NCBI GenBank assembly: GCA_029239935.1
Contig: JARBTY010000141.1
Coordinates: 1-7,934, forward strand
Source of the DNA: Clostridia bacterium
Lineage (GTDB): Bacteria > Bacillota_A > Clostridia > Lachnospirales > Cellulosilyticaceae
Length of the DNA stretch: 7,934 nucleotides
Reading direction: 5' to 3'
The position numbers were made by a program, and so were the translations under genes. The notes below the pieces were generated by a model. That model searched no databases, was not told the origin of the DNA, and saw only the letters and a program-made list of their open reading frames with translations. Below are positions 1 through 7,934 of this stretch, in pieces. The number at the start of each line of letters is the position of its first letter. The stretch's first letter is position 1.

Positions 1-389
1 TCTGTTTTGTGAAGTGGACTCACATTTTCTATATTGACATAGTCAGGAAAAACAAATTGATACACATGTCTTAGATGATTTTGTAAAAGCTCAAATCCAT
101 CAGTCAGTTCTCTTACTACAACGCCGTTGGGGGAAGGGATAACGCCGAGGGCTTCTTCAAGAGCTAAAGTAGCTGCCAGGGTATGGTGAGTGCAGCATAT
201 ACCACATGTCCTTGCTGTTAAATAGGGCATATCTAAAGGAGGTCTTTCTCTAAACATGGCCTCAAAACCCCTGAACTGCATACCACCGCTTCTAGCTTCT
301 ACGATAGAGTTGTTTTCAACTTCTACACTGATATCAAGAAGCCCACTTACTCTTGATACAGGGTCAATTCTAATTTCTGTTCTTGCCAT
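1..389 (-). CDS. [NiFe]-hydrogenase large subunit, N-terminal part (gene cut by window start)
   Basis: First 129 codons of the catalytic subunit that carries the Ni-Fe(CN)2CO site for H2 oxidation or evolution. The translation begins MARTEIRIDPVSRVSG and contains the N-terminal metal-ligand (L1) motif RTCGICCTHH at residues 60-69. This fits RxCGxCxxxH, with Cys62 and Cys65 as expected Ni/Fe ligands. MQFRGFE at 37-43 also matches the family. The ATG at 387-389 is preceded by GAGGTGA about 5 nt upstream, so the start is secure. It lies 13 nt after the small-subunit stop and is the third gene of the operon. Odd point: where most large subunits read RIEGH, this one reads RVSGL (residues 13-17), so the well-studied proton-relay Glu is a Ser. 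The C-terminal ligand motif (DPCxxC type) and the maturation cleavage site lie outside the window. Family assignment is firm; the subgroup is not determined. Confidence 0.93.
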   Translation of the reverse strand, partial: MARTEIRIDPVSRVSGLLDISVEVENNSIVEARSGGMQFRGFEAMFRERPPLDMPYLTARTCGICCTHHTLAATLALEEALGVIPSPNGVVVRELTDGFELLQNHLRHVYQFVFPDYVNIENVSPLHKT

Positions 390-402
390 GTCATCACCTC
401 GC

Positions 403-1281
403 TTAATATCGTACGAAAGGTTCCATCAAATCAGGAAACCCAAAAGAAGCACAGCCTATACAGGTGGAATTGGTACCTATAGGCCAGTTATCACTATCAT
501 TCCATCTAGTCAAAGGGCAGGTGGTTCGGGTAATGGGACCGCGGCAGCCTAATTTAAACATACATTCCGGATCACCATAGGTATTGGCAAAAATACCGTA
601 GTCAAAAAAGGCTCTTCTGGGGCACCGTTCATGGATGGTAATACCATAAAAAGTAACGGGTCTGCCTATGGAATCCAGCTCGGGCATGCCGAAATTTAAG
701 ATATAGCCAATGGTACCTAGTATCCAGACCGGATTGACTGTACAGCCAGGTATATTGATAACGGGTTGATCAATAGCTTGATTAAAGGGGACTGCCTCGG
801 ATACATTGGGTCTTCCAGATGTAGGACCACCAAAGGAGGCACATGTACCGGCAGCTAAATTATAACTGGAGCCTGGAGCAATGAGCCTCGCAGCTTCAAG
901 AGCGGAAATGGCTCTTCCTTGGTAATTAGCAATAATGGCGTAGCGGCCACCATCTCTAAGGGGGACTGCCCCGCTGAGAATAAAGATATAAGGTGTATCT
1001 GAATTGACAGTATTTAGTATTTGTTCGTAGGCCGCCTCACCCGAATCAGCCATAATACTGTTAAAAAAAGTCATATTAACCATTTGTGTCAAAAGGTCTG
1101 CTAGACCAGGATTGGCACCATCCAAAAGAGCGATGACCTCACCAAAGCACCCGGAGGTTTCAAGCCAGATACAGTTGGGTTTTTCGATAGTACCCTGGCG
1201 TATTTTTTCTATAGCCATATTGATATAGTTCATCGGTATATGATATTTGCTGTCTGGCAGAGGACAGTTTGTAGGGTTCAA
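403..1281 (-). CDS. [NiFe]-hydrogenase small subunit, cytoplasmic type (no Tat signal)
   Basis: Iron-sulfur electron-transfer subunit (292 aa) that pairs with the large subunit. Visible ligands: proximal cluster Cys45 (in ETSGCFGE), Cys147 (GTCASFGG) and Cys180 (IPGCTVNP); distal cluster His217, Cys220, Cys240 and Cys246; medial cluster Cys255, Cys274 and Cys277 (CIGC). The fourth proximal ligand, the second Cys of CxxC, is replaced by Glu48. The N-terminus has no twin-Arg motif or hydrophobic segment, so the enzyme should stay in the cytoplasm. Translation starts at TTG (1279-1281), preceded by AAGAAGGTG. The first in-frame ATG, at residue 17, has no ribosome binding site and would trim the N-terminus. 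The TGA of the upstream b5/collagen gene is 13 nt away and abuts this ribosome binding site, which suggests translational coupling. The large subunit follows after 13 nt. Family assignment is firm; the group within the [NiFe] hydrogenases needs phylogeny. Confidence 0.94.
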   Translation of the reverse strand: MNPTNCPLPDSKYHIPMNYINMAIEKIRQGTIEKPNCIWLETSGCFGEVIALLDGANPGLADLLTQMVNMTFFNSIMADSGEAAYEQILNTVNSDTPYIFILSGAVPLRDGGRYAIIANYQGRAISALEAARLIAPGSSYNLAAGTCASFGGPTSGRPNVSEAVPFNQAIDQPVINIPGCTVNPVWILGTIGYILNFGMPELDSIGRPVTFYGITIHERCPRRAFFDYGIFANTYGDPECMFKLGCRGPITRTTCPLTRWNDSDNWPIGTNSTCIGCASFGFPDLMEPFVRY

Positions 1282-1297
1282 AGCGCACCTTCTTTCA
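1282..1297 (-). promoter_or_regulatory. Ribosome binding site that decides a TTG start, overlapping upstream stop region
   Basis: Read on the minus strand, the TGA stop of the b5/collagen gene (1297-1295) runs directly into AAGAAGGTG and then, 4-6 nt later, the TTG start of the hydrogenase small subunit. No in-frame ATG nearby has a comparable Shine-Dalgarno. The tight arrangement suggests ribosomes finishing the first gene reinitiate on the second. Confidence 0.6.
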
Positions 1298-2455
1298 GTC
1301 TTTTTTTAGTCTTCCTAAGACAGGGACGAATTTTGCAAGAGTAGTTAAATCGCTGCAGCCATGGGTACAGGAATACAAACAAGTACGCCACTGAGATGTA
1401 TTGGTAATATCAAATACAATATCAGCAACAACTATATATTTAGGATTATTATTTTGGCCATTATAGTGATGCCGAAGTTCCTCAGCGGTAAAAAATCTAT
1501 AAGGAATCAAAAAAGGATAATTGTTAATAACGGAGTAACTGCCAGTGAAACCAGTAGGGCCAGTGAAACCAGTGGGACCAGTGAAACCAGTAGGGCTAGT
1601 GAAACCAGTAGGGCCAGTGAAACCAGTGGGACCAGTGAAACCGGTAGGGCTAGTGAAACCAGTAGGGCCAGTGAAACCAGTGGGACCAGTGAAACCGGTA
1701 GGGCTAGTGAAACCAGTAGGGCCAGTAAAACCAGTAGGACCAGTGAAACCAGTAGGACCAGTGAAACCAGTAGGACCAGTGAAACCGGTAGGGCTAGTGA
1801 AACCAGTAGGGCCAGTAAAACCAGTAGGACCAGTGAAACCAGTAGGGCTAGTGAAACCAGTGGGACCAGTGAAACCAGTGATACCAATAGAACCAGTAGG
1901 ACTGGTCATGTCGGGGGTAGAGGGCTGGAAGTATCCCACGGCAGGCATTATGCGCATGATATCCAGCGGATTATGATAGCCACAAGCCCTAGCGCGAGCA
2001 GTTGCATCAGTACCTGCCAACATACCAAAGTGGGCGCCCCCGCCCCAAGTAGCAATGTTGTTTACATTAAAAACAATACCATTAAGGGCCACGTAAGAAG
2101 GTCTGCCATCTAATCCATCATAATTACTAAGTTCTTCAGAGGTGAAAACTCTTTCTGGCACGCTAAAAGGAAGGATGGAAGGCAGCGGGACAGGATTGGA
2201 GGGAGGATTTTGCAGTGCGGTTTCAGGTATATTTAATGGCATACCTGGGGAGACTGCAGAAGCTGGCTGCTGGCGATTAATCTTTTTAGAATGAGCAGAA
2301 GGTGTTTTTAAAGAAGAAAGTTCAGCGTCTAGTTCCATAAGCTCTTGTATATAAGCAGCTATAGTGCTTGGGTTATTAAGTGTTGAAAGAAGTTTTTTAG
2401 TATTTCTTATTTCTTTTTCAAGATAAACGGCATATGATTCTTTGAGAGAGTCCAT
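1295..2455 (-). CDS. Two cytochrome b5-like domains joined by a collagen-like (GFTGPT)n linker
   Basis: Protein of 386 aa, first gene of the hydrogenase operon. Layout: charged, probably helical/coiled segment at 1-50; Pro/Ser-rich linker at 51-100; cytochrome b5-like (Cyt-b5 family) domain about 101-177, with [22 protein letters not shown] and GGAHFG followed by GYHNP, giving His142 and His161 as candidate haem ligands; collagen-like Gly-X-Y tract 188-307 with 18 full [12 protein letters not shown] units; second b5-like domain about 319-386 ([35 protein letters not shown]). The second domain is about 15 residues shorter between its Trp356 and His365, lacks the GGxH histidine and instead carries Cys359, Cys363, His365 and Cys367. 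There is no signal peptide or membrane helix. ATG 2453-2455 has GAGGAT 7 nt upstream. Inferred role: haem electron carrier or scaffold for the hydrogenase encoded next to it. Domain calls are by pattern; the electron-partner role is inference. Confidence 0.85.
1542..1901 (-). repeat. Tandem 18-bp repeat encoding the collagen-like GFTGPT tract, with 54-bp higher-order order
   Basis: Eighteen full 18-bp units (on the plus strand, ccagtgaaaccagtaggg and variants) run from 1542 to 1865, followed by diverged copies to about 1901. Five units (starting 1596, 1650, 1704, 1794, 1848) read ctagt instead of ccagt. This changes GGC to AGC, Gly to Ser, on the coding strand. Blocks of three units recur exactly: 1596-1649 equals 1650-1703, and 1686-1739 equals 1776-1829. 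The identity extends beyond 70 nt in both cases, which points to recent unequal exchange or slippage. The tract stays in frame in the b5 gene. Confidence 0.95.
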
Positions 2456-2483
2456 ATGTAATCCTCAGCAATCTATAAAATAT

Positions 2484-2512
2484 CTTATACATATATATTC
2501 TAAGCATATAAA
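2484..2512 (-). promoter_or_regulatory. Candidate sigma-A-like promoter of the b5/hydrogenase operon
   Basis: On the minus strand, TTTATA (2512-2507, 4/6 to TTGACA), a 17-nt spacer and TATAAG (2489-2484, 5/6 to TATAAT) would place the transcript start about 22 nt before the ATG at 2455. The region is very AT-rich, so such matches arise easily. A sporulation sigma promoter cannot be excluded. Confidence 0.35.
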
Positions 2513-2624
2513 TAAATATGTGTGATAAGTAGAATTTGTCATAAAAAACATAGGCAGCTGCTTAGTTAAGGATGAAAAAAATTTTAAAACCTATCAATTC
2601 AAGTTAAAGGGTAAGGAGGAAAAA

Positions 2625-2942
2625 ATGAAAAATATTATTAAATATGTAAAAATAACTGCTTATGTAGCAGTATGGATAGTTATTATTCCGTTAATTATGA
2701 GCGGCGTTTCTATTTTGCAGCTTTTTAGTGAGAAATATGATGTGACAAAATCTTATTATAATAGGGACTACTATATAAAGGTAAAGTCAGGAACAAATAA
2801 TATAGAAATTTTTAAAGAGTATATGGCAGAAAAAGGATGGACTTTGCAAACAGAAGAAAAAGATAGGCTTTTATTTGCCAATGAAAAAGGAAAGACAAAA
2901 CAAGTTTCTAAAGAAAATATAAAAACCATGCTTTATGAATAA
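2625..2942 (+). CDS. Small single-helix membrane protein, unknown function
   Basis: Protein of 105 aa that I do not recognise. A strong hydrophobic segment spans about residues 9-32 after a short Lys-rich N-terminus, consistent with an uncleaved signal anchor or one membrane helix. The remaining ~70 residues are polar and basic, with the segments VKSGTNNIEIFKEYMAEKGW and LLFANEKGKTKQV. They resemble a small alpha/beta domain rather than disorder. The start is well supported: AAGGAGG at 2613-2619 lies 5 nt before the ATG. The gene is divergent from the hydrogenase operon and convergent with the ProX gene, so it is likely transcribed alone. It has no obvious partner here. The gene itself is well supported; its function is open. 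Confidence 0.8.
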   Translation: MKNIIKYVKITAYVAVWIVIIPLIMSGVSILQLFSEKYDVTKSYYNRDYYIKVKSGTNNIEIFKEYMAEKGWTLQTEEKDRLLFANEKGKTKQVSKENIKTMLYE

Positions 2943-2969
2943 TAAGGGGACTTTACCTAGCATATTAAG

Positions 2970-3005
2970 TCTGATGCCAATAAGGCAAGAGATTTCTTGG
3001 TTTAA
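2970..3005 (+). terminator. Weak imperfect hairpin between convergent genes
   Basis: TCTGATGCC (2970-2978) can pair with GGCAAGAGA (2984-2992) around a 5-nt AATAA loop, with two central mismatches, followed by a T-rich stretch. It may end transcription of the small membrane-protein gene, but the stem is weak. Confidence 0.25.
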
Positions 3006-3010
3006 AAAAG

Positions 3011-3514
3011 CTATAGATCACTATCTTTAGTGACACCAATAAATTCATAAGGGATATCGCAGTGGATGATATATTTTTCAAAATCAGCATAGCTTATGAT
3101 AAAAGTAGAGGTGTTGATATTAGGGTGAAATCCTAGTTTAGATTGTTTAGGGAGATCTTCGTCTAGAAGAAGGGTTAAAGATTTGTTCTGAGCATGGACA
3201 ATGCCTAAAGGACTAACTGAACCTGGAGTTACACCAAGCAGTTCTAGAAGTTTGTCTTCCGTACCAAAAACAAGGCTGGCAGCTTTTAGCCTTTTGCGTA
3301 TCGTATTGAAATGAGCTTTTTTATCTTGAAGCATAGTGACTAAATAATGTCTGTCGGCTCTTTTATCATAAAGAAATAAATTTTTGCATACATTTCCATC
3401 AAATTCTCCTAGATGTTTAATATCATCAATGGTAAATGCAGGTTCATGAGTAATGCGCGTATAGGAAATATTGAGCTGATTTAAAGTTTCTAAAATAAGG
3501 ACATCTTCGTTCAT
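3011..3514 (-). CDS. proX: Prolyl-tRNA editing protein ProX (YbaK/EbsC family, Ala-tRNA(Pro) deacylase)
   Basis: Cytoplasmic trans-editing enzyme of 167 aa. This family hydrolyses tRNA(Pro) mischarged with another amino acid, typically alanine for the ProX/PrdX branch. Family hallmarks: VCKNLFLYDKR at 42-52 with the conserved Lys44; YLVTMLQDKKA at 57-67; GVTPGSVSPLG at 94-104; and FHPNINTSTFIIS at 129-141. The length is normal for a stand-alone ProX. I chose the ATG at 3512-3514 because AAAGGAG precedes it by about 9 nt. A longer in-frame start 30 codons upstream (3604) would run through the promoter and the hairpin terminator and has no conserved sequence. There are no D-proline reductase (prd) genes nearby, so general proofreading is more likely than a proline-fermentation role. 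It is probably monocistronic. The family assignment is strong; the exact amino acid edited is inferred. Confidence 0.9.
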   Translation of the reverse strand: MNEDVLILETLNQLNISYTRITHEPAFTIDDIKHLGEFDGNVCKNLFLYDKRADRHYLVTMLQDKKAHFNTIRKRLKAASLVFGTEDKLLELLGVTPGSVSPLGIVHAQNKSLTLLLDEDLPKQSKLGFHPNINTSTFIISYADFEKYIIHCDIPYEFIGVTKDSDL

Positions 3515-3556
3515 TGCAAGGAACTCCTTTATAGTAAAATAGTTTATATTAACTTT

Positions 3557-3585
3557 ATGATATAGATATCCTTTAGAAATATCAA
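3557..3585 (-). promoter_or_regulatory. Sigma-A promoter of the ProX gene
   Basis: On the minus strand, TTGATA (3585-3580, 5/6) and TATCAT (3562-3557, 5/6) are separated by exactly 17 nt. They lie about 45 nt upstream of the ProX ATG and downstream of the nucleotidase terminator. The position and match make this a convincing housekeeping promoter. Confidence 0.7.
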
Positions 3586-3590
3586 GCAGT

Positions 3591-3629
3591 AAAAAACCCC
3601 CCATCTAAATAATTTAGAGGGGGAGTTTT
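3591..3629 (-). terminator. Strong intrinsic terminator of the nucleotidase gene
   Basis: A 17-bp arm (3593-3609) pairs with 3613-3629 across a 3-nt loop, with two mismatches. The core is C-run against G-run plus TCTAAA/TTTAGA. On the minus strand the stem ends in TTTTTT (3596-3591). It sits about 40 nt beyond the nucleotidase stop codon and separates that gene from the ProX promoter. The A/T flanks on both sides could give some bidirectional function. Confidence 0.85.
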
Positions 3630-3669
3630 GTTAAGTTAAGATACAAATAGATGATTAATTGTAGTTTGC

Positions 3670-5469
3670 TTAGTTTGCAGGAACTAATAAAGTACTGCCA
3701 GTGTAAATTTTATGTATATCAGCAAGTTTGTTGATTTTGGCAAGTTCTTGATAAGTAGTCCCCACTTTTTTTGCGATGACTGCAAGGGTATCGCCAGATT
3801 GTACAACATATTTAACTAAAGTATTTTGAACAGTTGGTGCAGGAGCCGCTACAGGAACGACTACAGTCGCAGGTTCAGGTTTTACTTCAACCTTCACTTC
3901 AGCTTTAACTGTTTCTTTAGTCTCGGCCACTGGAACAGTTGCAGAGGTTAAGGCTTCAACTTTACCTGTTAACTCAATATCTTTTACACCGTTTACAGCA
4001 ATGTAGTCTATAACAGCTTCATCTAGCGCAGAGAACTGACCAGTATTTGGTTTGCCGCCAAACATGGTGTATCCATCGCCGCCAGCAGCTAGAAAGTCGT
4101 TTGTAGCTAAAGAATAAGTTTTGGTTTTATCGAGGGCTTTGCCTCCGATTTTTACCTCTTTAACACGGCTGCCAGCCTCAAGAGAAGGATCAAAGGTAAA
4201 GCTCATACCACCGATGTGAGGGAAACAGCCTTCTGGTGCAGGGTATTTAGCCACACCGACTTCAAGAGCTGCTACAAGTTCGGCACCGGTAATGTCTATG
4301 CTTACGATAAAGTTTCCAAAAGGAAGTACATTAATAATATCTTTTTTAGTGATATCTCCGGATTCAATAGAAGCGCGGATACCACCGCCGTTGGTAAGAG
4401 CGACATCGGCACCTGTTGCATCCAGCATGGCATCAACAATTAGATTACCCATGTTGGTTTCAGAGGATCTTACATTTTCTCTTTCGCCTACTAACCTAAC
4501 AGGAGTAGAACCTACTTTTTCAGAAGTTAAAGTGTCAAATTCCGCTTTAAGTTTAGCAATAACTGCTGTAACCGCTTCATCAGGTACGAGTGCTGCAGCA
4601 GCTTCTTTAGTATAAAGAGTAGGTACAAAAGTAACTTCATTATTGGCATCTACAGTGACATTAACGATACCAAGATTTTTATCATATTCACCTGTTTGTA
4701 CAATCAGTGTATCATTAACTTTTTTGCCTTCAGGCAAAGTCGTATGACTATGACCATCAATAATAAGGTCGATACCTGGAACTTCTAAAGCAACTTTTTC
4801 ACTGGTATAGACACTGCCTTTATCAAGGCCTAAATGAGCTAAAGCAATAATAATATCAGTCTTATTTTCAAGCTCTTTGACCATTGCTGCTGCTGCTTTG
4901 CTAGGATCTTCAAAGTCAAGGCCTTGAACATTTTTAGGATGTGTTTTATAGGTTGTCTCAGGTGTTGATAAACCAAAGATACCTACTTTTATGCCATTGA
5001 CCTCTTTAATGATATAAGGAGAAAGCAAAGTGCTATCATCAGCCTTCTTTACGTTAGCAGAGATAAGCGGAAAATCCATAGTTTTACTAAGTTCTACCAG
5101 CCTGTCCTGTCCATAATTAAAATCATGATTGCCAGGAGTCATTGCATCATAACCGATAGTATTTAAAATAGTTACAATACCTGCGCCCTCACTTACAGTG
5201 GATAAAGGAATACCATGTAAGGTATCACCAGCGTCAAGAACCAATACGTTTTCTTTGCCGAGAGCAGTTCTAAGTTCATTAATTTTGGCGGATACTTTGG
5301 CAAAGCCCATGCCGTCATTACTGCTTTCTTCAATACGGGAGTGTGTGTCATTAGTATGTACGATAGTCATTGTTTTAGGTGTTGTCTTAGCCATAAGCTG
5401 TACAGGTAATAAAAGTGTACCAATTAAAAATAGTGTGATAAGTGAAACAATAGCTTTCTTTTTAAACAT
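3670..5469 (-). CDS. Secreted 5'-nucleotidase/2',3'-cyclic phosphodiesterase family protein with C-terminal LysM
   Basis: Extracellular metallophosphoesterase of 599 aa, likely releasing phosphate and nucleosides from nucleotides at the cell surface. A signal peptide covers about 1-27 (KKK, hydrophobic core, LMA|KT). The calcineurin-like domain runs about 33-260, with metal ligands in HTNDTH (Asp41, His43), DAGDT (Asp82), GNHD (Asn114, His115), ALAHLG (His212) and DGHSH (His240, His242). The 5'-nucleotidase C-terminal domain runs about 315-505, with TNGGGIRAS (359-367) and AAGGDGYTMF (461-470). A Val/Lys/Pro/Ala-rich linker (515-548) leads to one LysM domain (553-597; YVVQSGDTLAVIAKK, LLVPAN) expected to bind peptidoglycan. 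The ATG at 5467-5469 has AAGGAGG 6 nt upstream; a 23-codon upstream extension lacks such a site and would bury the signal peptide. A terminator follows the gene. Family assignment is firm; the preferred substrate cannot be read from sequence. Confidence 0.95.
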   Translation of the reverse strand: MFKKKAIVSLITLFLIGTLLLPVQLMAKTTPKTMTIVHTNDTHSRIEESSNDGMGFAKVSAKINELRTALGKENVLVLDAGDTLHGIPLSTVSEGAGIVTILNTIGYDAMTPGNHDFNYGQDRLVELSKTMDFPLISANVKKADDSTLLSPYIIKEVNGIKVGIFGLSTPETTYKTHPKNVQGLDFEDPSKAAAAMVKELENKTDIIIALAHLGLDKGSVYTSEKVALEVPGIDLIIDGHSHTTLPEGKKVNDTLIVQTGEYDKNLGIVNVTVDANNEVTFVPTLYTKEAAAALVPDEAVTAVIAKLKAEFDTLTSEKVGSTPVRLVGERENVRSSETNMGNLIVDAMLDATGADVALTNGGGIRASIESGDITKKDIINVLPFGNFIVSIDITGAELVAALEVGVAKYPAPEGCFPHIGGMSFTFDPSLEAGSRVKEVKIGGKALDKTKTYSLATNDFLAAGGDGYTMFGGKPNTGQFSALDEAVIDYIAVNGVKDIELTGKVEALTSATVPVAETKETVKAEVKVEVKPEPATVVVPVAAPAPTVQNTLVKYVVQSGDTLAVIAKKVGTTYQELAKINKLADIHKIYTGSTLLVPAN

Positions 5470-5636
5470 TCTATACCTCCTTAACAATTTTGAATAGTCT
5501 ATCACAATTAGTATACAAGCTAAAAATAGAAAAAGCACTACTAAAATGATAAAAATACAATTTAAAGAAATATAAATATTTTTAATTATATGATATGATA
5601 GAAATAAATTGCCAGCTATAGGGGAGAGAATAAGCG
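5470..5636. promoter_or_regulatory. Divergent AT-rich promoter region between nucleotidase and membrane-protein gene
   Basis: This 167-nt region must hold promoters for both directions. On the minus strand TATACT (5515-5510) is a reasonable -10 for the nucleotidase, but no good -35 lies 16-18 nt upstream of it. On the plus strand, overlapping TATGAT copies (5589-5594 and 5594-5599) are possible -10 elements for the following gene, again without a clear -35. I see no riboswitch or convincing operator. Confidence 0.35.
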
Positions 5637-6317
5637 GTGATAAGAATACAAAAAAGGCAGCTTAAAGAAGAGGAAAAAAATTTTAGGCAGGCTCTTATGC
5701 AAAAAGCTGATTCTGGGGAGCTGAGCTTAACGGAGAAAGAAAAGCATGAAGAATTTATGCAATATATAAGGCAAAAAGAGCAACGAAGAAATCAAGCCAT
5801 TATCATTTTTATAGGTCTATTGGGGGTTGTGTTGACCGTACTATTTCTAAGGTATGGAGGACAAAGATTAGTAGATATAACTATGCCGCAGCAAAAAATA
5901 ACTTATTATGAAGTACCAGGATTATCGAATAGAAGTACTACGGAGTTATTGCAAAAGGTAGCAGTACATATAGAGCGGAATAACAGTGCCAGCAATCTTT
6001 TTAATAGTGCCATCGGGCAGTATAATGAGGCGTATTATGTAGATCATGACTACATAACCCATTTAGCATCGTTAAAGGAGTTTAGTGCGGATACAAGTCT
6101 TGCAGATTTGGATGTCTTATTTAAAGAAATTGTAGATAAACAAATACTTGTACTTAAAGAATTAATGGAAGGAAAGAGAAATATACACAATGTAAATAGA
6201 ACGCTGCAAGAAATACAGCAGTTAAACGAAACCTACACGCAGTCCATCATCTATATACTGCAAAATGAAGATATTAAATGTGAAAATACCCAAGACGGCA
6301 TCAGTATCTATGAATAA
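5637..6317 (+). CDS. Bitopic membrane protein, unknown function
   Basis: Protein of 226 aa that I do not recognise. It has a very charged, probably coiled-coil cytoplasmic N-terminus (about 1-51, many Lys/Glu/Gln), one membrane helix at about 53-72 (AIIIFIGLLGVVLTVLFL), then an outside domain of ~150 residues. That domain is predicted mainly helical and includes FKEIVDKQILVLKELMEGK and a C-terminal QQLNETYTQSI stretch. Positive residues before the helix (RQKEQRR) support an N-in topology. The start is GTG at 5637-5639, with GGGGAGAG beginning 16 nt upstream, a somewhat long spacing. No ATG with a better site exists before the membrane helix. It is transcribed away from the nucleotidase. Its architecture (short cytoplasmic tail, one helix, outside domain) resembles the next gene, but I see no sequence similarity. 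Function is open. Confidence 0.78.
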   Translation: MIRIQKRQLKEEEKNFRQALMQKADSGELSLTEKEKHEEFMQYIRQKEQRRNQAIIIFIGLLGVVLTVLFLRYGGQRLVDITMPQQKITYYEVPGLSNRSTTELLQKVAVHIERNNSASNLFNSAIGQYNEAYYVDHDYITHLASLKEFSADTSLADLDVLFKEIVDKQILVLKELMEGKRNIHNVNRTLQEIQQLNETYTQSIIYILQNEDIKCENTQDGISIYE

Positions 6318-6342
6318 ATTATAGCGTATAAAAAGATTGTGT

Positions 6343-6372
6343 AAACATTTAGAGAAAATTTTAATGTTTTTG
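6343..6372 (+). terminator. AT-rich hairpin, possible weak terminator
   Basis: AAACATT (6343-6349) and AATGTTT (6363-6369) form a perfect 7-bp inverted repeat around a 13-nt loop. The 3' arm ends in a T-run (6367-6371). It lies just past the stop of the membrane-protein gene. The low GC of the stem keeps confidence low. Confidence 0.3.
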
Positions 6373-6392
6373 GTGTATTGATGATAATGTAT

Positions 6393-6421
6393 TTGACAGA
6401 TGATAGATAAGTCACTAATAT
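6393..6421 (+). promoter_or_regulatory. Sigma-A-type promoter for the second membrane-protein gene and the LytS-like gene
   Basis: A perfect TTGACA (6393-6398) is followed after 17 nt by TAATAT (6416-6421, 4/6 to TATAAT). Transcription would start near 6428, giving a leader of roughly 45 nt before the start codon at 6475. A small inverted repeat lies just downstream of it. Confidence 0.6.
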
Positions 6422-6434
6422 TTAAGTATACAAT

Positions 6435-6447
6435 GATTGGCACAATC
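6435..6447. promoter_or_regulatory. Small inverted repeat near the +1 site, possible operator
   Basis: GATTG, GCA spacer, CAATC forms a perfect 5-bp inverted repeat about 14 nt after the candidate -10 element, where a repressor could act. CAAT at 6431-6434 also pairs with the same left arm. It is short enough to be chance. Confidence 0.25.
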
Positions 6448-6474
6448 GATTAACGGGCTTGAAGGGAGATGACC

Positions 6475-7320
6475 ATGTTATTTTTATTTGATTTACCTAT
6501 AGAGGCAGATGAAGACACAAAACCCAAAAAAGATAAAAAGAAATTTACATTACATATAGTTAATAAAGAAAAATGGATAATTGGAAGTATTGTCCTAGTC
6601 ACATTGATGATTATAGTCGGAACGGCCGGGGTATTGATGACCTATAAAACCCCAGAAAATATTTCACCTTATTGCAAGCTGATGAAGGATCAAGGCAAGA
6701 TTTGCAAAATACATGGAAAAAAACATGAGGAAAAGGGACTAAAAGATCTTGTTATTCCAGAAGGAGAGATGGCGTTCCATAGGCAGCTGGCAGAAGAGAT
6801 AGAAAAGGGTGCTTATTTTGACGGGGACAAGCTGTATAAAAAAGAAGACGCAGAGGAAATATGGGCTATAAAGGATAATTTTATTAAAGAAAAGGAATCC
6901 TTATTTGAAAGATACCTTGCTAGTACCTTGTCACAACAAGAAAAAGAACGGTATAATTTTCTTATAGAAGAATTGGTAACCTTAGAAGAGGCAATCATTA
7001 AGCTAGGTATAGAAGAATCAGCCAGCCTGCCTCTACAGGAAGAGTTACAAGTGGAGCAAACACAACCCATAGAACAAATAGAACAAATAGAACAAATAGA
7101 AGAGACCGAACCCATAGAACAGATAGAGCAAGCGGATCAGCAGGAACAGTCTGAACCCATAGCTCAAGGGGAGCTAAAGCGTGGAGATGAGAATAGCAGT
7201 CAAACCCCTCAAAGACAAAGTGCGGTAGTATTTGAACAAAGCGAAACACAAACATTAAACATCCCACCAGACATAGAGAAGGCCGCAACCTTAAAAAAAA
7301 GTTTATTATATAACTACTAA
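6475..7320 (+). CDS. Bitopic membrane protein with juxtamembrane Cys/His cluster and Pro-Ile-Glu-Gln repeats, unknown function
   Basis: Protein of 281 aa that I do not recognise. Layout: acidic then Lys-rich cytoplasmic N-terminus (1-33); one membrane helix at about 34-56; a Cys/His cluster immediately after it (Cys67, Cys77, His80, His84, spacing C-x9-C-x2-H-x3-H); a helical, charged region at about 95-185; a Glu/Gln-rich repeat tract (198-231, PIEQIEQ type); and a polar C-terminus. With Lys on the N-terminal side, the Cys/His part and repeats should lie outside the membrane. I chose the ATG at 6475 over the in-frame ATG at 6469 because AAGGGAG (6462-6468) touches the earlier codon but is 6 nt from this one. 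A good promoter lies upstream, and the LytS-like gene follows after 27 nt with no terminator between, so the two are probably co-transcribed. Function is open. Confidence 0.8.
   Translation: MLFLFDLPIEADEDTKPKKDKKKFTLHIVNKEKWIIGSIVLVTLMIIVGTAGVLMTYKTPENISPYCKLMKDQGKICKIHGKKHEEKGLKDLVIPEGEMAFHRQLAEEIEKGAYFDGDKLYKKEDAEEIWAIKDNFIKEKESLFERYLASTLSQQEKERYNFLIEELVTLEEAIIKLGIEESASLPLQEELQVEQTQPIEQIEQIEQIEETEPIEQIEQADQQEQSEPIAQGELKRGDENSSQTPQRQSAVVFEQSETQTLNIPPDIEKAATLKKSLLYNY
7066..7131 (+). repeat. Short in-frame repeat encoding PIEQIEQ units
   Basis: Three perfect copies of the 9-nt unit gaacaaata (7072-7098) follow cccata. A second cccatagaacagatagag block starts at 7111, and another cccata is at 7156. 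The repeat encodes a flexible acidic Pro-Ile-Glu-Gln tract and is likely to vary in length between strains. Confidence 0.75.
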
Positions 7321-7347
7321 AAATAATAGATGTTAAAGAGGAAAAAG

Positions 7348-7934
7348 ATGCATATGCTTGTAGAATTATCACAAAATCTTATGAATAAACTGGGGATTAT
7401 TGTTTTAGCAGCTTTTGTGTTATCCAAATCCGACTTTTTTAAGGACTATCTTTTAAAAGAGAAGTTGACATTAAAAGGAAAAATATTATTTTCAATCATT
7501 TTTGGTGGTGTTGGAATCATTGGGACTTATTGGGGAGTTCCTGTTAATGATGCCATTGCTAACTCACGGTCTATAGGTGTTATTGTTGCGGGATTATTTG
7601 GCGGGCCTGCAGTTGGTGTTGGGGCAGGGCTTATTGCGGGTATTCATAGGATACTGATACCAACAGGCAGATTTACCGCTGTAGCTTGCGGCATATCCAC
7701 CGTAGTAGGGGGAATGATGGCAGGGTACCTTAAAGGATATGTGGATACAAAACCTAATAAATGGATATGGGGGCTTATTATTTGTGCATGGATTGAGACG
7801 ATTCAGATGGGTATTATCCTGATTGTCGCCAGACCCTTTGATCAGGCAGTGAACCTTGTACAGCTTATCTTTTTACCTATGGCTTTTATTAATGCTATCG
7901 GGACCGCTGCATTTATTCTTTTAATTGAGCAGAT
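7348..7934 (+). CDS. LytS-family (5TM-5TMR_LYT) sensor, N-terminal part (cut by window end)
   Basis: The first 195 residues of a multi-pass membrane sensor, open to the window edge. The hallmark of the 5TM-5TMR_LYT domain is clear: GTYWGVPVNDAIANSRSIG at 59-77, then GLFGGPAVGVGAGLIAGIHR at 82-101 and FTAVACGIST at 109-118. Further hydrophobic segments at about 139-161 and 170-193 complete the usual membrane bundle. In LytS/BtsS-type kinases this domain senses an extracellular or membrane signal and feeds a GAF, HisKA-like and ATPase part, which would lie outside the window. Diguanylate cyclases and other outputs also use this domain, so the kinase call is likely but not shown here. The ATG at 7348 has AAAGAGG 6 nt upstream; an in-frame ATG two codons later is possible. 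The upstream neighbour, 27 nt away, is a membrane protein of unknown function that might work with it. Confidence 0.88.
   Translation, partial: MHMLVELSQNLMNKLGIIVLAAFVLSKSDFFKDYLLKEKLTLKGKILFSIIFGGVGIIGTYWGVPVNDAIANSRSIGVIVAGLFGGPAVGVGAGLIAGIHRILIPTGRFTAVACGISTVVGGMMAGYLKGYVDTKPNKWIWGLIICAWIETIQMGIILIVARPFDQAVNLVQLIFLPMAFINAIGTAAFILLIEQ

Follow-up and report, generated by a model that had tools for sequence, protein, structure and literature searches.

What does a soluble cytochrome b5-type protein do as the first gene product of a [NiFe]-hydrogenase operon? The question is raised by the start of contig JARBTY010000141.1 from a Clostridia bacterium (assembly GCA_029239935.1, Cellulosilyticaceae), of which positions 1 to 7,934 were analysed and are referred to here as the window. 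The minus strand from 2455 to 1 holds three genes (2455-1295, 1281-403 and 389-1), separated by intergenic gaps of 13 and 13 bases and each preceded by a plausible ribosome site, and the tight packing in one direction claimed in a preliminary description of this DNA is therefore real. In our view, the front end of this clostridial operon encodes a cytoplasmic group 1 [NiFe]-hydrogenase with a soluble b5-type protein as its dedicated third subunit for electron transfer, an interpretation to which we assign a probability of about 0.6. The features to which we refer below are as follows.

1295..2455, minus strand: b5 partner protein, 386 amino acids (open reading frame, ORF; Pfam PF00173 and PF01391)
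2306..2452, minus strand: N-terminal helical hairpin, residues 2-50, with helices 2-23 and 29-50 (AlphaFold2 model; block predicted local distance difference test score, pLDDT, 84-93)
1928..2152, minus strand: b5 domain 1, about residues 102-176 (Pfam, aligned rows, solved relatives 6nzx and 6vz6)
1544..1894, minus strand: Gly-X-Thr repeat spacer, residues 188-304 (triplet count; PF01391)
1298..1498, minus strand: b5 domain 2, residues 320-386, seemingly decayed and lacking the conserved His pair (profile comparison)
403..1281, minus strand: [NiFe]-hydrogenase small subunit, 292 amino acids, TTG start (Pfam, NCBIfam, kinship to Protein Data Bank, PDB, entries)
1..389, minus strand: [NiFe]-hydrogenase large subunit, first 129 amino acids, cut by the window end (ORF; Pfam)

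The interpretation is carried above all by the conservation of the pairing. A contig scan of genomes with a small-subunit alignment, chosen regardless of b5, yielded 40 loci (set 1; loci, genomes and proteins are cited by L, G and P numbers). A b5 profile located the gene at 30 of these loci, at 29 of them directly upstream of the hydrogenase and, in the case of L035, some 2.4 kb downstream of it. To guard against bias, set 2 was formed by an even draw of 391 genomes from the class to which G008 belongs (Anaerophilus; presumably Clostridia), with a small-subunit match of E 1e-40 or better as the hydrogenase threshold (22 matches, one of them distant); G004, G008, G024 and G025 are common to both sets. 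The hydrogenase is present in 21 of the 391 genomes, and 18 of the 21 have b5 in the operon. It lies directly upstream in 17, counting the fused L056 and also L064, where b5 is broken by stops, while in G228 it sits between HycI and a weak HypA-like gene. The b5 type (E 1e-10) occurs in 37 of the 391 genomes, namely in all 21 with the hydrogenase and in 16 of the 370 without it (Fisher p 4e-25, uncorrected for relatedness). A chance neighbourhood of the two genes is rejected by the synteny in both sets and by this co-occurrence, and the operon pairing is firmly supported. The preliminary description had suggested a search for conserved synteny, and both sets display it.

Since b5 in the operon needs 5 changes on a 60-row tree of the small subunit, compared with a shuffled mean of 12.0 (0 of 500 shuffles as low), the pairing looks old, with a few local losses. 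The tree was built by a quick method, with L035, G228 and the broken L064 scored as present and the partial rows L033 and L074 kept. Fusions of b5 to the small subunit are found on two separate branches. L056 is one 440-residue frame without a clear internal ribosome site; in P0009, which was available as a protein sequence with its DNA unseen, the b5 part scores 20.3 bits, just under the Pfam cut-off of 23.7. In its full form, as seen in L001, the operon runs b5, small subunit, large subunit, HycI, HypA, HypB, HypF, HypC, HypD and HypE, with individual Hyp genes missing at some loci. The recurring genes besides b5 and the hydrogenase are thus HycI and Hyp, which serve maturation. No membrane subunit, including cytochrome b (Ni_hydr_CYTB), was found among the eight L001 operon genes scanned; the recurring neighbours at other loci, not every one of which was scanned, fall in the same clusters as the L001 genes. 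Because the pairing is conserved, the other operon genes are concerned with maturation and a membrane subunit was not found, we consider it most likely that the b5 protein acts as the dedicated subunit for electron transfer; a soluble b5 redox partner is the simplest reading of these sequences.

The b5 partner protein gives a single Cyt-b5 match in Pfam (PF00173, 35 bits, residues 105-171). The AlphaFold2 model, calculated from 33 aligned sequences (mean pLDDT 75; predicted template modelling score, pTM, 0.58), shows the helical hairpin, followed by a Pro-rich stretch of low confidence and then a b5 fold, and a stretch similar in length to the hairpin precedes b5 in many partners. The best structural matches of domain 1 are cytochromes b5 from Hadesarchaea and Methanococcoides (Foldseek, template modelling score 0.82 by target length), followed by animal cytochromes b5, and domain 1 has fold-level kinship with cytochrome b5. 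The nearest solved sequences are 6nzx (E 8e-21) and 6vz6, the former of which is termed a b-type cytochrome in the available passages of PMC7096707. Residues W137, H142, G148, D150, C158 and H161 are identical in all 33 aligned rows. Besides the window and P0121-P0125, these rows represent 27 of the 30 b5 loci; the other three are L004 and L005, which also keep the W, H, C and H of domain 1, and L033, which lacks the end of domain 1, the second His included. H142 and H161 are candidate haem ligands. We note that in L033 (1795-3300), a near-identical relative, the b5 protein is much shorter and the small-subunit frame is split, which is either real or an assembly fault at the repeat.

The small subunit matches PF14720 and PF01058, and the large-subunit fragment matches PF00374. 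In NCBIfam the small subunit scores 198.2 bits with TIGR00391 (cut-off 179.5) and 215.8 bits with the [NiFeSe] small-subunit model NF045520, which is below the cut-off of 470 for that model. Its TTG start is preceded by AAGAAGG. Read by eye, with no signal-peptide predictor, the sequence has no visible twin-arginine translocation (Tat) leader, and the N-terminus is mature-like in the window and in the aligned relatives, which fits the cytoplasmic location proposed in the preliminary description. The L1 motif of the large subunit, RTCGIC, is present in the window, which ends before the L2 motif; the latter is DPCLNC in the whole copies of L001 and L033. The nearest solved small subunits are 3myr and the Desulfovibrio-type enzymes. 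At the proximal cluster Cys45 is kept and the usual second Cys is Glu48 (window 1138-1149). Among the 58 of the 60 rows with a letter at this second place, the residue is Asn in 44, Glu in 11, Gln in two and Cys in one, the distant outlier L075, and the hydrogenase family of the window does not have the four-Cys proximal [4Fe-4S] site; both PDB chains that were compared have Cys here. To our knowledge Glu at this site, as in the branch of the window, is less familiar. In groups 1f and 2a Asn or Asp replaces one of the four proximal Cys, although which one is unstated in the available passages (PMC5364354). The altered site hints at an enzyme built to stand oxidants, and no more.

We also note a gene encoding 83-93 residues in the place of HypA at eight loci, including L013 (3563-3832), L020 (3794-4063), L028 (9752-10000) and L038 (9660-9938). 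Its likeness to HypA is confined to the N-terminal part, and it is without the zinc-finger cysteine pairs. Three of the four copies scanned score 14.9-19.7 bits, under the cut-off, and the fourth gives no match.

In the mechanism that we propose, the soluble b5 protein would do the work usually done by a membrane cytochrome b or a periplasmic cytochrome c. The large subunit would split H2, and the electrons would follow the chain of three Fe-S clusters in the small subunit as far as the distal one, where the b5 domain would dock, accept single electrons on a haem held by two histidines and then reduce a soluble acceptor. A second b5 copy and a long spacer of low complexity would have been added to the partner in the lineage to which the window belongs. 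Because the second copy is decaying, the spacer and tail would probably act as a tether or spacer and not as a second electron site.

Several observations weigh against this interpretation, the chief doubt being the supply of haem. Counting every match, neither type of terminal haem-synthesis enzyme is found in 20 of the 30 b5-operon genomes, and the nearest relative, G033 (2.4 Mb), shows neither a ferrochelatase match nor an AhbC/AhbD-like pair. A ferrochelatase match occurs in 5 of the 40 genomes, always partial and in two cases over the cut-off. An AhbD-like gene with an AhbC-like neighbour is found in 8 of the 40 (G001, G002, G008, G015, G021, G028, G036 and G039), with AhbD-like scores of 342-373 bits that are clear of other radical-SAM matches but under the NCBIfam cut-off of 500. 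These tandem genes suggest a siroheme-based haem route; six of the eight genomes are b5-operon genomes, including G001 and G002, which are relatives of the window, and G003 has only a 150-bit piece with a stop. For the 20 genomes that show no such enzymes, one of three explanations would apply: haem import, a domain without haem, or incomplete genomes. The His pair of domain 1 also lies outside the classical HPGG setting. Ten set 1 loci have no b5 in the operon (L009, L014, L015, L016, L024, L032, L034, L036, L038 and L040). In G024, G108 and G426 the hydrogenase is likewise without b5 in the operon, b5 being found elsewhere in the genome, while neither of two models detects any b5 in G009 and G038, which do carry the hydrogenase; one of these models recovers the known G001 copy that the other missed. 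Since some hydrogenase genomes lack an operon b5, and these two show none at all, the partner is dispensable or exchangeable. Conversely, sixteen of the 391 genomes have b5 without the hydrogenase, among them G298, in which b5 stands beside a large-subunit remnant. Finally, the model of the P0009 fusion (pLDDT 63, with most of the b5 part at 27-49) is unfolded in its b5 part; it was left unused and is silent on docking.

The haem question leads to the first alternative, in which the b5 protein is haem-free and assists the hydrogenase as a subunit for scaffolding, maturation or docking, the b5 fold being used only as a binding module. The 20 genomes just described speak for it, as does the report that such acetogens show only parts of one haem pathway, in the available passages of PMC9431212, and the helical hairpin and long spacers resemble assembly parts. 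Against this, H142 and H161 are identical throughout the alignment even where haem synthesis is invisible, the relatives L001 and L002 have the AhbC/AhbD-like pair, and haem import is possible. We regard a haem-free role as unlikely, and prefer electron transfer.

If the b5 protein does transfer electrons, the best hint of an acceptor comes from fusions of b5 to other domains. In Romboutsia L004 (6158-6976) and Paraclostridium L005 (6162-6998) the operon b5 stands behind a rubrerythrin/Mn-catalase-like domain. G016 encodes a rubrerythrin-rubredoxin-b5 protein (L045, 724-1596), G036 a cupin-b5 protein and G040 a b5 domain behind an unnamed half with DUF5661, and in all three the hydrogenase has no adjoining b5; in G108 and G426 the b5 carries an unnamed C-terminal part. 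Because b5 often sits elsewhere, fused, where the hydrogenase has none beside it, the pattern suggests that b5 is a redox module that can be exchanged, one of its acceptors being a diiron peroxidase, as inferred from three genomes. We note in passing that the stand-alone b5 proteins L042, L048, L076, L079, L080 and L085 have a common MSIY/MSTY start and a TIREL or TISEL stretch, and that several of them have an unnamed C-terminal part, in one case with GMGTTTGG repeats.

The second alternative takes this hint further and makes the operon an H2-driven defence against peroxide or O2, in which electrons from H2 pass via b5 to a rubrerythrin-like diiron peroxidase. The operon fusions of L004 and L005 are consistent with it, as are the terminal b5 of the rubredoxin-bearing rubrerythrin in G016 and the Asn or Glu in place of one proximal Cys, comparable to the Asn/Asp of groups 1f and 2a (PMC5364354, available passages). 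However, such a fusion is seen in three genomes only, the window partner and the other operon partners that were read have no visible diiron domain, and there are no oxidative-stress genes among the eight L001 operon genes scanned. Defence as the function of the operon is a tentative proposal of low probability. In its widest form, which we consider more doubtful still, a widespread clostridial hydrogenase family, marked by a proximal site of three Cys plus Asn/Glu and by a soluble b5 dedicated to it, would feed diiron peroxidases with intracellular H2 as an O2/peroxide defence in strict anaerobes; b5 would then be an exchangeable plug, fused by lineage to the hydrogenase, to rubrerythrin-like domains or to long repeat spacers. 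If the diiron link is true, anaerobes would have an added route by which to spend H2 on removing oxidants.

The preliminary description saw in the partner two b5 domains joined by collagen, and this layout is upheld in part. The first b5 domain and the repeat pass their Pfam cut-offs (Collagen PF01391, 53 bits against 27.2), whereas the second b5 domain has no Pfam match and has lost its His, and the spacer is broken. Of its 39 triplets (19 GFT, 13 GPT, five SPT, one GSI and one GIT), 34 begin with Gly and five are Ser-Pro-Thr; the longest uninterrupted Gly-X-Y run is nine triplets, so that the unbroken array expected for trimerisation is not found in the window. With a profile built from the first-type domains of other genomes, domain 2 is clearly recognised as a homologue (41.9 bits, compared with 5.8 for the best of 200 shuffles), but His is absent at both conserved positions and the matching end of the domain is missing. 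Ten second domains were scored, of which those of L002 and P0123 reach 83-88 bits with two His and the rest 37-71 bits. Since domain 2 has lost its His pair and the other second copies mostly score low, the second b5 copies seem to be decaying. Two equal haem domains acting as a wire are ruled out for the window by the missing His pair; L002 and P0123 are the second copies that retain two His.

Four of the 40 loci (L001, L002, L003 and L033) have the layout of two b5 domains and a spacer, as do the window and P0121-P0125, and the five members with a small subunit in the tree group together. The spacer itself is variable. A Gly-X-Thr repeat is seen in the window, in P0122 and in L001, which has up to 37 triplets without interruption; L003 has Thr-Pro instead, L002 Pro-Gly-Ile-Gly-Thr and P0123 Pro-Met, and the array is short in P0121 and L033. 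L002 and L003 keep the two-domain layout with no Gly-X-Y run of at least three triplets. The length of the b5 protein varies even among near relatives (L033, 260; P0121, 291; P0122, 357; window, 386 amino acids), and the single-domain b5 partners that were read have no such spacer. The conserved feature is a spacer, not collagen.

These comparisons bear directly on the idea, put forward in the preliminary description, that trimers of the collagen-like tails collect several hydrogenases in a single particle. The Collagen score of the window protein and the long run in L001 favour it. The collagen-like form, however, is confined to part of one small clade, with unrelated low-complexity sequence in the sister species; it is interrupted in the window and short in two near relatives, and it has no counterpart in the single-domain partners elsewhere, while the second domain is decayed. 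Collagen as an essential part is rejected as a general principle, the collagen mechanism is doubtful, and we consider trimerisation as the working principle very unlikely.

The least likely alternative places the hydrogenase in sporulation or at the surface of the spore, with coat-like N-termini and repeats of exosporium type as its anchor. In its favour, the collagen-like GPT repeats are reminiscent of exosporium proteins, the N-termini in L013, L025, L074 and L078 are rich in Tyr and Cys, and CATATAAT, a motif picked post hoc, lies 25-50 bases before the b5 start of 6 of 26 b5 genes (L013, L020, L023, L025, L026 and L030) and of 0 of 192 control genes, but CATATAAT includes the vegetative TATAAT, which alone is not clearly enriched (6 of 26 versus 23 of 192, p 0.11), no shared -35 element was seen by eye upstream of b5, and the window is without the motif. 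The count took 26 of the 30 b5 loci, four being removed by filters. A sporulation promoter is thus a lead only, its -10-like match being ambiguous with a vegetative one. Also on the side of a spore role, a [NiFe] cluster of C. beijerinckii, which may belong to the family of the window, is highest in stationary phase according to the available passages of PMC6362236.

Outside the operon, an aminoacyl-tRNA editing (YbaK-type) gene lies upstream of it in the window (3011-3604), a place that is kept in L001 (4759-5280), L002 and L033. A short Glu-Gln-Ile repeat (7069-7131) falls within ORF 6469-7320, the product of which has no Pfam match and a likely membrane span; this ORF adjoins the start of a LytS-type 5TM receptor.

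Comparison with known systems places the electron-transfer interpretation as follows. The window protein has Gly-X-Y repeat scores in common with bacterial collagen-like proteins (Scl/Lcl adhesins), but differs from them in having no visible secretion or anchor signal, short and interrupted runs and scores far below the NCBIfam cut-offs. Of the solved structures, 6nzx (Hadesarchaea) and 6vz6 (Methanococcoides burtonii) come nearest to domain 1 in both sequence and fold; they are stand-alone 78-residue constructs with which the second His of the window is out of exact register in the alignment, and we know of no hydrogenase link for either. The small subunit shows kinship to 3myr and to the Desulfovibrio-type periplasmic hydrogenases (1frv, 1yqw), with most cluster sites in common. 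Hydrogenases of the Desulfovibrio type are exported and have periplasmic or membrane cytochromes as partners, whereas in the window enzyme no leader is visible, the b5 partner is soluble and one of the proximal Cys is exchanged.

The closest parallel is provided by the group 1a systems of acetogens, which like the window belong to Clostridia, are without a Tat leader, adjoin a b5 gene and have a doubtful haem supply. A b5 gene beside a Tat-less group 1a [NiFe]-hydrogenase is recorded in C. carboxidivorans, C. drakei and C. scatologenes in the available passages of PMC9431212, which leave a cytoplasmic location possible. The remark in the preliminary description that its author did not know of such an arrangement accordingly stands only in part: the pairing itself had been recorded, while no description of the wider pattern, of the fusions or of a b5-collagen-b5 hydrogenase partner was found in the open-licence PMC papers searched. 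The PMC9431212 passages leave open the role and acceptor of the clostridial Tat-less [NiFe]-hydrogenases; the conserved soluble b5, fused in some lineages, points to a likely partner and brings the question within reach of experiment. Set beside the remark on those three species, the pairing is already known, while the class-wide pattern, the b5 and diiron fusions and the double b5 with its repeat spacer are what the present analysis adds.

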